Positions 44,936 through 50,305 of a DNA stretch of 64,000 bases are shown in pieces (the stretch's first letter is position 1; each line of letters begins with the position of its first letter). The notes under the pieces are model-generated. The model made no database searches. It was not told the DNA's origin and worked only from the letters and a program-made list of their open reading frames with translations. The position numbers were made by a program, and so were the translations under genes. Source of the DNA: Streptomyces sp. P9-A4 (GTDB taxonomy: Bacteria > Actinomycetota > Actinomycetes > Streptomycetales > Streptomycetaceae); assembly GCF_036634195.1 (NCBI RefSeq), contig NZ_JAZIFY010000001.1, forward strand, positions 2,552,501 to 2,616,500. Reading direction: 5' to 3'.

Positions 44936-45772
44936 ATGCGCAAGCCGCGCTGGTGGCTGGAGTTGTCGTTGGTCGGCGTCGTCTACGCGGGCTACTCCGC
45001 GGGACGGCTCCTGGCCCGGGGCGACGAGGACTCGGCCGTCGGCCACGGGCTCGCGATCCTCCGCCTGGAGGAACGGCTGGGGATCGACGCCGAGCACCCG
45101 CTGAACCGGCTGTTCACGGACGTGCCCGCGCTCGGGGTCCCGGCGGACTTCGCGTACGCCTCCCTGCACTACCTGGTGACCCCGGCGATCCTGGTGTGGC
45201 TGTTCCGCCGCCGCCCCGCCCACTACCGGGCCGCCCGCACCTGGCTGATGGTCTCCACCCTGCTCGGGCTCGTCGGCTTCACCCTGCTGCCCACCTGCCC
45301 GCCCCGGCTGCTCGACGCGGCGCACGGCTTCACGGACACGATGGCGCACTTCAGCGCGTACGGCTGGTGGGGCGGCGAGGCCAGCGCACCGCGCGGGCTC
45401 GGCGGGATGACCAACCAGTACGCGGCGATGCCGAGCCTCCACGTCGGCTGGGCGCTGTGGTGCGGGGTGATGCTCTGGAGGTACGGGCGGACACCGCTCG
45501 CGAAGGCCCTCGGAGTGGCGTATCCGCTGGTCACCGCGGTGGTCGTGATGGGGACCGCCAACCACTACCTGCTGGACGCGGTCGGCGGGGCCGCCGTGAT
45601 GGGCGCCGGGCTGCTGCTGACCCCGTACGCGCTGCGGCTCGCCGGGCGGCTGCGCGGGACGGCGGAAGCTCCCCCGGTTGTCAGTGGCGGATGCGAGACT
45701 TCCCCGGGTGAGCGCATCCCTGGACAGCGGTCTGCCCCAACCCCCGCGGACCACCCGTCGACAACTCGCTGA
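44936..45772 (+). CDS. PAP2-family membrane phosphatase
   Basis: A 278-residue membrane protein with about six helices. It has the PAP2_3/inositol phosphorylceramide synthase-type features: a GGMTNQYAAMPSLHVGWAL stretch with the catalytic His, and a later GTANHYLLDAVGGAAVMGAG with the second His-Asp. The likely role is lipid phosphate dephosphorylation. The last 65 bases overlap the start of the nuclease gene in another frame. GGGGGAT precedes the ATG. Confidence 0.85.
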   Translation: MRKPRWWLELSLVGVVYAGYSAGRLLARGDEDSAVGHGLAILRLEERLGIDAEHPLNRLFTDVPALGVPADFAYASLHYLVTPAILVWLFRRRPAHYRAARTWLMVSTLLGLVGFTLLPTCPPRLLDAAHGFTDTMAHFSAYGWWGGEASAPRGLGGMTNQYAAMPSLHVGWALWCGVMLWRYGRTPLAKALGVAYPLVTAVVVMGTANHYLLDAVGGAAVMGAGLLLTPYALRLAGRLRGTAEAPPVVSGGCETSPGERIPGQRSAPTPADHPSTTR

Positions 45773-46838
45773 GCTGCGCGGCCCGGCCACCCCACCGCGT
45801 CCACTGGACGCGCGGGCCCTCGCGGCGCTGGCCGCCAATCCCGGCTGCCGGCGGCGGGCCCTGCTCGACGGCGCCGGGGTCGACAAGTCCGCGCTCGCCG
45901 CGAAGCTCGGCTCGCCCGCCCCGTTCGGGCAGTCGCAGTTCGCGATCGTGCGGGGCAACTCCTTCGAGGCGAAGGTCAAGGCGGACGGCGGCCGTGAGCT
46001 GCTGCGCCTGATCGGCGTGGAGGAGCCGGGCGCGGTGTCCGTGCCCGATCTCGCGGCGGCCGGACCCGAGGGGCGGGTGGCCAGGACGGCGCTCGCGCTG
46101 CGGGAGGCGACCGACGCGGGGGCGTGGTCGCTGCTCGACCATCCGCTGCTCGCCCTGGAGGTCGCGGGCTCGCCGGTGTACCTGGAGCCGGACGCGGTGG
46201 TGGTCCGCCCCGACGGCGGGTGGACGGTCGTGGAGATCAAGTCGTTCCCGATGGTCGACGGCGCGGCGGACGCGTCGAAGGTGGGCGCGGCGGCCCGGCA
46301 GGCCGCCGTGTACGTGCTGGCGCTCGAGCGGGTGGCGGCCAGGACGGAGGGCGCGCGGGTCGCGCAGTCGGTGCTCCTGGTCTGCCCGAAGGACTTCTCG
46401 AACGTGCCGACGGCCTCGGTCGTCGACGTGCGCAAGCAGCGCTCGGTCACCCGGCGCCAGCTGGCCCGGCTGACCCGGATCGACGAGATCGCGCGGGCGC
46501 TGCCCGAGGGCACCAGCTTCGATGTGGCGGAGCGCTCGGCGGAGGAGCTGACGGCGGCGGTGGAGTCGGTGCCCCACCAGTACGCGCCGGAGTGCCTGGC
46601 CGCCTGCGAGCTGGCCTTCCACTGCCGGTCGCGGTCGCGGGAGACGGGCGCGGTGGAGACCCTGGGCCGTTCGGTACGCGGTGAGCTGGGCGGTCTGACG
46701 ACCGTCGGCGCGGTCCTGGCGGCGGCGCGCGGCGAGGAGGGCGACCCTCAGGACCCGGCGGTGGCGGCACTGCGCAGGGCGCGGGCGCTGCGGCAGGAAG
46801 CGCTGGCGGCGGGTTCGGGGGGTGTGGCATGTCGCTGA
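45708..46838 (+). CDS. Cas4/AddB-type Fe-S PD-(D/E)XK nuclease
   Basis: A 376-residue protein. It has the RecB/Cas4-type nuclease set: Asp162 in YLEPDAVVV, Glu176 and Lys178 in VVEIKSF, and Q198-x3-Y202 in RQAAVYVL. A cysteine at 47 and three C-terminal cysteines C296-x3-C300-x5-C306 match the spacing of the 4Fe-4S clasp found in AddB and Cas4. A conserved RGNSFEAKV stretch precedes the active site. I chose GTG 45708; GTG 45678 is also in frame. It overlaps the PAP2 gene by 65 bases and its stop overlaps the next gene by 10 bases, so it is translationally coupled to both. It is probably the exonuclease of the helicase complex downstream; the function is inferred from motifs and gene order. 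Confidence 0.8.
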   Translation: MSASLDSGLPQPPRTTRRQLAELRGPATPPRPLDARALAALAANPGCRRRALLDGAGVDKSALAAKLGSPAPFGQSQFAIVRGNSFEAKVKADGGRELLRLIGVEEPGAVSVPDLAAAGPEGRVARTALALREATDAGAWSLLDHPLLALEVAGSPVYLEPDAVVVRPDGGWTVVEIKSFPMVDGAADASKVGAAARQAAVYVLALERVAARTEGARVAQSVLLVCPKDFSNVPTASVVDVRKQRSVTRRQLARLTRIDEIARALPEGTSFDVAERSAEELTAAVESVPHQYAPECLAACELAFHCRSRSRETGAVETLGRSVRGELGGLTTVGAVLAAARGEEGDPQDPAVAALRRARALRQEALAAGSGGVACR

Positions 46839-48442
46839 TCTCCACGCTCGCCCGGATGGAGGCCGTCGAGTCGGGCCGGGCGCAGCCGCTCGCGACCGTC
46901 CGGCACCGGCGGCTCTCCGCGCGGCCCCTCGTCCTCGTACCGCTGACGACGGCCGGTGAGGCGGGCGCCCCTCTGGGCGCCCTCGTCGGCACCGGCCCCG
47001 AGGAGCCGCGGCTGCTCGTGGTGCCGCAGCCCCGGGACCGTGACCTGCGGTTCGCGTTCCTCGCCGATCTGGCCGAGGAGGTCCTGCCGTACATCGACTC
47101 CTTCGCGGACGTCGTCGAGACGGCGGAGAAGAGCGAGGTCGACCCCGAGACCGGCAAGAAGGTGAAGGTCGAGGTCGAGCTGTGCGCGGACGCGCCGCAG
47201 CTGATCGTGCCGAGCCGGGCCGGCATCGAGTACGTACGGCTGCTGGGGCGGTCGACGCGGTTCCGGTGGACGGCCGAGCAGGACCCGGAGACACCGTTCC
47301 CCGCGCCGCCGCGCGTCCCGCTGCTCGGGCGCTGGCTGACGCACTTCGGCGACCGGGCCCGGGTGCCCGGCTCCTCGCTGCTGCTGTCGGCGACCGACCT
47401 GCTCAACCGGCACTGGGCGACCGGGCAGTCCTCCCTGGAGGACCAGCACCTCGGCGCGCTGCTCGCCTGGATCGACCCGTCCGACGCACCGGGCGCGGAG
47501 GCGGCGCTGCGGGCGGAGACGGGCCGGGACTCCCAGGGGCAGCTGCTCTGCCCGCCCGCCGGGCCCGCCACCGACCCCGCCTTCGACAACCGGCTGCTCG
47601 CGCCCGCGATCGAGCGGTACGACCGGGCCCGGCAGCGGCTCGGCGCGGCCGAGGACGGCGAGAGCGCCGACTCGGGCCTCGGTGAGCTGCACGCGGCCGA
47701 GCGGGAGCTGCGCCGGCTCGTCGTCTCCCAGCTGAAACCGACCTGGGACGCGGTCTGGCGGGCGGTCGGCCTGCTGCGGGAGCTGCCGGAAGGCACCAGG
47801 GTCGAGGACCGCTGGACCCGCGACCGCTGGTCCTTCACCGCCCACCGGGACCGGGTCACGGCCGGTGAGCCGCCGCAGCCGCGCCGGGACGACGCCGTGA
47901 CGGCGGCCCGGAAGCTCGCCGCGCGCGAGCAGGCGCAGGGCCAGCTGGAGGCGCAGGAGGCGCTCGACGATCCGCTGGTGCTCGCCGGGCGGCGGCTCGC
48001 GGGCGAGGCGTTCGCGGCGGAGGTCGTCGAGGTGACGATGGCGTGGACGGAGTCGAAGCGGCCCGCGCCGCGCCCCCTGCTCACGGTCCGCACGGAGGAC
48101 CGGCCGCACCTGGGCGTGGGGGTCCCCCCGGCCGAAGGCTGGGGGAGGGTGAGGGTGTACCGGTCGCTCGACGGGAAGCCGCAGGCGGCGGAGTTCGTGC
48201 GGTACGAGGAGGACGGGGCGCTGCTGCTGCGGCTGCTCGACCGGATGGGCCGGTCGAAGGAGCCTGCGCCGGGCTCGGTGCCGGAGAAGGGCGAGCGGAT
48301 CTCCTGGACCCTGTTCGAGCACGACCAGCGGGTCGGGCCGCAGCTGCCGGACGCGGAGGAGACCCCCTGGACGCACGGCGGTCCGCCCCGGACCGACGCC
48401 GTGGAACTGCCCGACGCCGTGACCCCGGAGGACGTGCTGTGA
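46829..48442 (+). CDS. Unknown protein coupled to nuclease and helicase genes
   Basis: 537 residues, soluble, no signal peptide, no recognised enzymatic motif. The N-terminal half has alternating beta/helix patterns; the middle (residues about 285-310 and 365-390) is strongly helical, with KLAAREQAQGQLEAQEALDD; the C-terminal third (about 395-500) looks like a beta-rich domain, with LTVRTEDRP and VRVYRSLDGKPQAAEFVRYE. That part could be the 1B/beta-barrel region missing from the compact helicase downstream. A GC-rich repeated element is inserted in frame near 48117-48150. It starts inside the nuclease gene and its stop overlaps the helicase start. Confidence 0.75.
   Translation: MSLISTLARMEAVESGRAQPLATVRHRRLSARPLVLVPLTTAGEAGAPLGALVGTGPEEPRLLVVPQPRDRDLRFAFLADLAEEVLPYIDSFADVVETAEKSEVDPETGKKVKVEVELCADAPQLIVPSRAGIEYVRLLGRSTRFRWTAEQDPETPFPAPPRVPLLGRWLTHFGDRARVPGSSLLLSATDLLNRHWATGQSSLEDQHLGALLAWIDPSDAPGAEAALRAETGRDSQGQLLCPPAGPATDPAFDNRLLAPAIERYDRARQRLGAAEDGESADSGLGELHAAERELRRLVVSQLKPTWDAVWRAVGLLRELPEGTRVEDRWTRDRWSFTAHRDRVTAGEPPQPRRDDAVTAARKLAAREQAQGQLEAQEALDDPLVLAGRRLAGEAFAAEVVEVTMAWTESKRPAPRPLLTVRTEDRPHLGVGVPPAEGWGRVRVYRSLDGKPQAAEFVRYEEDGALLLRLLDRMGRSKEPAPGSVPEKGERISWTLFEHDQRVGPQLPDAEETPWTHGGPPRTDAVELPDAVTPEDVL
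48117..48150. repeat. GC-rich palindromic element inserted in frame (copy 1)
   Basis: GGGGGTCCCCCC followed by GAAGGCTGGGGGAGGG forms a hairpin-capable sequence that encodes VGVPPAEGWGR. I have seen this peptide in many unrelated Streptomyces proteins, which marks a small dispersed element. A related copy is at 50867. Confidence 0.65.
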
Positions 48443-49776
48443 GTCCCGAACCCTTCGACCCCTCGGCGGAGGCCGGCCGGGCGACGGCCGGCATCCTGGC
48501 GGACACCCTGCACGGCACCGCGCGCGGTGTCGTGGTGGACTCCCCGCCCGGGGCCGGGAAGTCGACCCTGGTCGTCCGGGCCGCGCTGGAACTGGCCGCC
48601 GCCGGGCGCCCCCTGATGGTGGTGGCGCAGACGAACGCGCAGGTGGACGACCTGGTGCTGCGGCTCGCCGAGAAGGAGCCCGACCTTGAGGTGGGCCGGC
48701 TGCACTCGAACGACTCCGACCCGTACGACAAGGCGCTCGACGACCTGGAGAACGTACGGAAGTCGGCGAAGGCCGGTGAGCTGGCCGGGCTGCCGGTCGT
48801 GCTGTCCACGGCCGCCAAGTGGGGGCACGTGAAGAACGTCGAGCCCTGGGCGCACGCGATCGTCGACGAGGCGTACCAGATGCGCTCGGACGCGCTGCTC
48901 GCGGTGGCGGGCCTCTTCGAGCGGGCACTGTTCGTGGGTGACCCCGGACAGCTCGACCCGTTCTCCGTGGTGGGCGCGGAGCAGTGGGCGGGGCTGTCGT
49001 ACGACCCTTCGGCGAGCGCCGTCGCGACCCTGCTCGCGCACAACCCGGAGCTGCCGCAGCACCGGCTGCCGGTGTCCTGGCGGCTGCCGGCCTCGGCGGC
49101 GCCGCTGGTGTCGGACGCCTTCTACCCGTTCACTCCGTTCCGCAGCGGCACCGGGCACGGGGACCGGAAGCTGTCGTTCGGGGTGGCGTCGGACGGTTCG
49201 GGTCCCGACCGGGTCCTCGACGAGGCGGCGGAGTCCGGCTGGGGCCTGCTCGAACTGCCCGCCGCGCACACCCCGCGCACCGACCCGGAGGCGGTCGGCG
49301 CGGTGGCGCTGGTGGTGCGCCGGCTGCTGGACCGGGAGGGCACGGCGGTCTCGGAGCGGTCGGAGGCCGCCGTCCCGCTGACGCCGGACCGGATCGCGGT
49401 CGGCACCGCCCACCGCGACCAGGCGGCGGCGGTCCGGGCCGCGCTCGCGGAGCTGGGCGTGACGGGCGTGACGGTGGACACCGCGAACCGGCTCCAGGGG
49501 CGCGAGTACGACGTGACGGTCGTCCTGCACCCTCTGTCCGGGCGGCCGGACGCGACGGCCTTCCACCTGGAGACGGGGCGGCTGTGCGTCCTCGCCTCCC
49601 GGCACCGGCACGCGTGCGTGGTGGTCTGCCGGGCGGGCGTGGCGGACCTGCTCGACGCGCATCCGTCGACGGAGCCGGTCCAGCTGGGGGTCGCGGTGTC
49701 GTTCCCCGACGGCTGGGAGGCGAACCACACGGTCCTGTCCCATCTGGAGGAACACCGGGTGACCTGGACGCCGTGA
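48439..49776 (+). CDS. Compact SF1B DNA/RNA helicase
   Basis: A 445-residue helicase of the Upf1/Dna2-like superfamily 1. Motif I is SPPGAGKST (Lys41), motif II VDEAYQMR (Asp143-Glu144), motif III VGDPGQLDPFS (about 166-176), motif V NRLQGREYDVTVVLHP and motif VI VLASRHRHACVVV with arginines near 386. It lacks the large insertions of RecD or Dna2. The GTG start overlaps the stop of the preceding gene by four bases. With the Fe-S nuclease two genes up, it may form a Dna2- or AddAB-like end-processing complex. Confidence 0.85.
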   Translation: MSPEPFDPSAEAGRATAGILADTLHGTARGVVVDSPPGAGKSTLVVRAALELAAAGRPLMVVAQTNAQVDDLVLRLAEKEPDLEVGRLHSNDSDPYDKALDDLENVRKSAKAGELAGLPVVLSTAAKWGHVKNVEPWAHAIVDEAYQMRSDALLAVAGLFERALFVGDPGQLDPFSVVGAEQWAGLSYDPSASAVATLLAHNPELPQHRLPVSWRLPASAAPLVSDAFYPFTPFRSGTGHGDRKLSFGVASDGSGPDRVLDEAAESGWGLLELPAAHTPRTDPEAVGAVALVVRRLLDREGTAVSERSEAAVPLTPDRIAVGTAHRDQAAAVRAALAELGVTGVTVDTANRLQGREYDVTVVLHPLSGRPDATAFHLETGRLCVLASRHRHACVVVCRAGVADLLDAHPSTEPVQLGVAVSFPDGWEANHTVLSHLEEHRVTWTP

Positions 49777-49948: not shown

Positions 49949-50305
49949 ATGGCGGAACCCGCGGAACGGAGCGGACAGCGGCGGCTCAGGCCGGCACCGC
50001 TGATCTTCGAGCCTGCCGAGGCGACCGCCGACCCGGAGCACTTCTTCGACCTGGAGTCGCTGGAGGACCCGAGGGAGCTGCTGGCCCGCGCGACGGAGCT
50101 GACGCTCGCGTTCCGCGCGGCGACGGACCGGGCCACCGAGTTCCAGGCCATCGCGGCGGCGCAGCTGGCGGACCCGCGCCGGTTCGACCGGCTGACGACG
50201 GCGGACGTCGCCGAACGGGCGCAGTGGACCGAGGACTACGCGCTGAAAATGATCGAGTTCGGCCGCGACCTGATCAGGACGAACGGGCGCCCGGCGGAGG
50301 ACTGA
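49949..50305 (+). CDS. Unknown helical protein downstream of the helicase gene
   Basis: 118 residues, soluble, rich in Glu, Ala and Arg. HFFDLESLEDPRELLARATE and LTTADVAERAQWTEDYALKM are predicted helices. GAGGAGGAGAAG precedes the ATG at 49949. It follows the helicase gene by 172 bases; membership of the same operon is uncertain. Function unknown. Confidence 0.65.
   Translation: MAEPAERSGQRRLRPAPLIFEPAEATADPEHFFDLESLEDPRELLARATELTLAFRAATDRATEFQAIAAAQLADPRRFDRLTTADVAERAQWTEDYALKMIEFGRDLIRTNGRPAED

Follow-up and report, generated by a model that had tools for sequence, protein, structure and literature searches.

In the present study we have analysed a 64,000-nucleotide stretch of Streptomyces sp. 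P9-A4 (contig NZ_JAZIFY010000001.1, positions 2,552,501 to 2,616,500; hereafter the window), in which three overlapping genes encode a PD-(D/E)XK nuclease, a middle protein that matches no known family and a superfamily 1B (SF1B) helicase of the UPF1/DNA2 type. We propose that this trio is probably one DNA2-like helicase-nuclease divided among three separate chains and acting in DNA-end processing. The trio is conserved together in many soil actinomycetes, and comparison of the sequences supports its reading as one functional unit, because the three genes occur in the same genomes, keep their order and overlap, are lost jointly and have distant relatives in which the nuclease is fused to a middle-like region.

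All three open reading frames lie on the forward strand. The nuclease gene (45708..46838, 376 residues) has a GTG start at 45708, with an alternative TTG start at 45678 also open; the middle gene (46829..48442, 537 residues, ATG start at 46829) overlaps it by 10 bases, and the helicase gene (48439..49776, 445 residues, GTG start at 48439) overlaps the middle gene by 4 bases, positions that confirm the overlaps given by the first-pass annotation of this DNA. In a sample of 197 genomes of the class, with start codons chosen by script, the stop/start overlap is kept between nuclease and middle genes in 25 of 29 loci and between middle and helicase genes in 19 of 26.

The nuclease subunit is of the RecB or 'iron-staple' type, with a match to PDDEXK_1 below the cut-off (E 0.0024); NCBIfam, PADLOC and PHROGs models give no match, the Cas4 family models of NCBIfam and PADLOC included. 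The RecB-family nuclease motifs of DNA2 and of the bacterial enzyme Bad are present as D162 ... E176-x-K178 ... Q198-x3-Y202 (46191..46313), the residues already named by the first-pass annotation. When 20 of the 29 nuclease loci are aligned, these five residues and C296, C300 and C306 are invariant, while C47 is found in all rows extending that far; among 79 homologues from named genomes, K178 and Y202 are kept in 78 (one gap each), E176 and Q198 in 77 and D162 in 76. Four cysteines span the nuclease domain, as in the iron staple of DNA2 and Bad, namely Cys47 (codon 45846..45848; 78 of 79 homologues, one gap) and Cys296-x3-Cys300-x5-Cys306 (codons 46593..46625; 79 of 79), and they may ligate an iron-sulphur (Fe-S) cluster. 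A loss of these cysteines in homologues, raised beforehand as an objection, is thus not seen; the Cas4/AddB spacing ascribed to them fits less well, the last three being separated by x3/x5 as against x2/x5 in AddB and DNA2.

The middle subunit, in which no known motif had been recognised, is indeed unmatched by Pfam, NCBIfam, PADLOC and PHROGs models, the best hit being at chance level (E 0.11). A profile search against the PDB gives no convincing match (best E 0.13), and the protein has no match among 50,697 phage records. Among 20 sequences 111 positions are invariant, including a C-terminal TPWTHGGPP (48362..48388), which could possibly be a docking motif. Residues 394-444 (48008..48160) give a local profile match to the stretch directly N-terminal of the helicase core in one-chain TM0106-type enzymes. 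A crude propensity count indicates a long helix at about residues 355-397 with some strands after it; the beta-rich C-terminal third suggested earlier is therefore only weakly borne out, as strands do follow the helix but the first third scored higher for strand. We suggest that the protein may adopt a stalk/beta-barrel-like fold.

The helicase subunit belongs to the UPF1/DNA2-type SF1B enzymes, as AAA_11 (E 6e-12) and AAA_12 (5e-7) both exceed the Pfam cut-off, which agrees with the motifs first assigned to it, and its best PDB matches by sequence are DNA2 (1e-9) and SMUBP-2 (7e-9). Further matches are weak or below cut-off and comprise the PLuB-system helicase model (8e-16, far below cut-off), an unnamed phrog (1e-15), MkoC of Mokosh (6e-9) and IGHMBP2 (3e-8). 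The Walker A motif SPPGAGKS (residues 35-42; 48541..48564) is preceded by only about 34 residues. Motifs I, Ia, II, III, V and VI vary very little, 64-66 of 66 aligned helicases agreeing at each inspected position, and at one position in motif Ia the window helicase differs from all 66 others. In an unrooted tree of actinomycete sequences, the helicases of the trio, those of two-gene relatives and 22 one-chain TM0106-type helicases constitute three separate groups, with 17 trio rows set apart from the 22 TM0106-type rows with a support of 98/99; a placement inside the TM0106/Bad-type clade was rejected, since the trio rows form a group of their own. Locus L064 (genome G107) contains a decayed helicase with internal stops, and the same genome retains a one-chain TM0106-type enzyme.

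Protein searches with the three subunits returned 3,732, 3,404 and 4,650 relatives at E <= 0.001 among the 8,000 scored per protein, and the best 120 listed for each are from Streptomyces wherever named. Orthologues of nuclease, middle protein and helicase are found in exactly the same 29 of the 197 class genomes; these include all 16 that belong to the genus of the window. The middle protein gave 30 hits (one discarded as chance), the nuclease 31 (two weak) and the helicase 74, of which 29 have E <= 4.1e-91 and the remainder E >= 5.9e-13. The middle gene is directly flanked by the nuclease gene at all 29 loci and by the helicase gene at 26; in G095 and G196 the helicase lies 36-49 kb off on the same strand, and one more locus hits a contig end. 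Within Streptomyces the middle gene is present in 281 of 295 genomes, and in 12 of the remaining 14 nuclease and helicase are missing as well. Five of these joint absences (G318, G396, G430, G459 and G474) concern assemblies of 50-140 contigs and the other seven more fragmented ones; the last two genomes, assembled in 810 and 1,420 contigs, hold fragments close to contig starts. A second full trio, with 37-59% identity to that of the window, occurs in two genomes.

Outside Streptomyces we inspected 80 named loci, the best 80 of at least 589, which by record title come from Streptosporangiaceae, Thermomonosporaceae, Micromonosporaceae, Parafrankia, Nocardia, Amycolatopsis and a few metagenome-assembled genomes, with genera placed in what we take to be their families. 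The nuclease gene adjoins the middle gene in 79 of them, the remaining locus being broken by a contig end. The helicase gene adjoins in 62; among the other 18 it lies 1-2.5 kb farther in four, a contig end intervenes in two, and 12, all from Micromonospora or Verrucosispora, are without it within the examined flank. Nine of ten usable neighbour genes of the window have no relative in these loci (up to 6 kb per side); the tenth, a GGDEF gene, has relatives in 12 of them. Thus, the trio stays together while its surroundings change almost wholly, and the survey of gene neighbours across actinobacteria that the first-pass annotation had recommended turns out in favour of a conserved unit.

A quick tree, in which some branches are long, arranges the middle proteins largely by bacterial family: it shows 10 label changes, where shuffling of the labels gives 49.9 on average. 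All 8 Streptomyces core copies included fall together, and second and plasmid copies lie outside their group; exceptions to the family grouping are found in Micromonosporaceae (5 changes) and in the set of Nocardia, Amycolatopsis and Parafrankia (3 changes). This family-wise grouping, together with the single core group, suggests that inheritance is mostly vertical, with exceptions. The invariance or near-invariance of nuclease residues, helicase motifs and middle positions further suggests that the genes are under strong constraint rather than decaying.

The gene order of the trio parallels DNA2, in which nuclease and UPF1-type helicase are separated by a barrel carried on a stalk (PMC4716839; this and the other papers compared here are cited from excerpts). 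DNA2 is one chain with an OB domain preceding the nuclease (PMC4716839), whereas the trio consists of separate chains and the first ~390 residues of its middle subunit have no demonstrated DNA2 counterpart. Bad of Geobacillus, a characterised bacterial relative with ssDNA (single-stranded DNA) endonuclease and DNA motor activities, likewise has an Fe-S RecB-type nuclease followed by an SF1B helicase, and the motifs of both are conserved in the trio; Bad is however a monomer of one chain (PMC7430649). The fusion of nuclease and SF1B helicase that characterises DNA2 and Bad is absent from the trio, where stop codons part all three genes. The actinomycete one-chain proteins with a TM0106/TIGR03491 helicase are probably of the Bad type, and five full TM0106 chains scanned contain an RNase_H_2 domain that Pfam does not detect in the trio. 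Mokosh (MkoA/MkoC) shares the UPF1-type helicase core, but its defining phospholipase-D part was undetected by Pfam and PADLOC in all three proteins. AddAB and AdnAB are, like the trio as read here, helicase-nucleases acting at DNA ends, and their motors are UvrD-type. An AddAB-like identity was rejected, as the trio has no UvrD-type SF1A match in Pfam or the PDB, just weak PADLOC hits to GajB (E 0.002); of the Dna2/AddAB-like unit first proposed, the single functional unit and the DNA2-type motor are supported, and the likeness to AddAB is not. The Fe-S nuclease type is also carried by AddB (PMC7430649). AdnAB is described as the main helicase-nuclease of Streptomyces (PMC5869714), and the trio would therefore be additional. 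UvrD-Cas4 fusions, which are defence-linked, similarly tie a Cas4-like nuclease to an SF1 helicase, but their motor is of the UvrD type and 3'-5', the two parts are fused and the excerpt describes no middle subunit (PMC5704561). No description of the trio was found in searches of the open-licence literature, as judged by titles and the openings of abstracts.

In the mechanism that we propose, nuclease, middle protein and helicase would assemble as one enzyme made of a nuclease, a stalk/barrel-like subunit and a motor. The small helicase would represent a bare SF1B core moving 5'-3', a polarity taken from its subfamily, while the middle protein would add the stalk/beta-barrel-like part missing from this core and tether it to the Fe-S nuclease; in this way the moving motor would lead single strands of DNA ends or flaps through the nuclease. 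This Streptomyces core-genome enzyme would most likely process DNA ends, in repair or in the clearing of linear or flapped DNA, and its mobile relatives beside Wadjet and Zac could use this activity to destroy DNA that has been cut. Were this true, most Streptomyces sampled and many other actinomycetes would hold a further helicase-nuclease besides AdnAB, and its separable chains would make it possible to study one by one what nuclease, stalk/barrel and motor contribute.

Several relatives described here are new. Two Streptomyces plasmids, L186 (NZ_CP027023.1) and L187 (NZ_CP108489.1), carry copies of the trio directly upstream of Wadjet JetABCD, flanked by SbcCD genes in L187 and by SbcCD-like fragments in L186; TPWTHGGPP is kept only in part in L187. 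Genes resembling sbcC/sbcD lie near the trio in Amycolatopsis pretoriensis (L181), a Micromonospora (L161) and genome G101 (L035). A fourth gene is located upstream of the nuclease gene in 59 of the 80 non-Streptomyces loci (L103-L182) and in both plasmid copies; its product in L187 (L187:9971-10816) has 281 residues and matches no known family, and neither the window nor two other Streptomyces stretches yielded it. In distant relatives a single chain unites nuclease and middle-like region, with the helicase encoded next, the nuclease part matching that of the trio with an hhalign E of 1.4e-8. In L101 (G246) this fusion and its helicase adjoin the ZacABC defence genes, in L102 (G146) just a decayed remnant does so, and no Zac genes were found in the stretch examined around the two-gene relative of G176. 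Finally, L190, L191 and L193-L196, from four actinomycete genera, hold a plasmid operon encoding an AAA/MoxR ATPase, a VWA protein, a small protein, a middle-like protein and an SF1B helicase, with no nuclease gene annotated. A middle protein or helicase found widely without the nuclease was named beforehand as evidence against the complex; the outcome is divided, as orthologues never occur so in the class sample, but this distant plasmid pair does by its annotation. Taken together, the plasmid copies, the fourth gene, the Zac-linked fusion and the pair with no annotated nuclease make the middle protein and helicase look like an exchangeable motor module.

The mobile relatives adjoin defence loci, which favours defence for the mobile copies, and the core copy itself might likewise act against phages or plasmids, its motor opening invading DNA for the Fe-S nuclease to degrade. 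The plasmid copies at Wadjet and SbcCD, the Zac-associated relative and remnant, and the weak helicase matches to Mokosh and to the PLuB system are consistent with this; we consider it rather unlikely, given that nearly every Streptomyces sampled carries the core copy, that synteny at its locus is largely kept in the two Streptomyces stretches inspected (L072 and L073), that its inheritance is mostly family-wise, that PADLOC models match neither nuclease nor middle protein, and that the middle protein has no match in the phage records. The frequency in Streptomyces, the largely vertical descent and the synteny in these two stretches instead favour a maintenance role, and for the core copy repair is likelier than defence. 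Both alternatives left by the first-pass annotation, end processing and defence, have thus found evidence, each in a different set of copies. It is improbable that the three proteins belong to one co-regulated pathway without forming a complex: the helicase is unlinked in some Micromonospora loci and still retained in two genomes of such a genus, but the stop/start overlaps, the nuclease-middle-like fusion and the exactly matched presence argue for association. Trimming of RNA or RNA-DNA hybrids (R-loops) by a UPF1-type motor and nuclease is very unlikely: the UPF1/IGHMBP2/DNA2 branch does include RNA helicases, but Bad acts on DNA (PMC7430649), DNA2 is the top PDB match and the mobile copies sit with the DNA-acting SbcCD and Wadjet.

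Beyond the DNA2-like enzyme favoured for the core copy, a wider reading is possible, if doubtful. Together with the Fe-S nuclease and the fourth protein, the exchangeable motor module might form a bacterial counterpart of MRE11-RAD50/DNA2 end resection which, alongside SbcCD, degrades DNA linearised by Wadjet, and together with MoxR-like and VWA proteins it might form another plasmid-borne system. We know of no earlier multi-chain DNA2-like enzyme, and this would be the first. The linkage to Wadjet and SbcCD offers a testable idea of the events after Wadjet cleavage.

A gene for a 118-residue protein without family match is located 3' of the trio, at 49949-50305 of the window, and is shared by both Streptomyces stretches that were checked.
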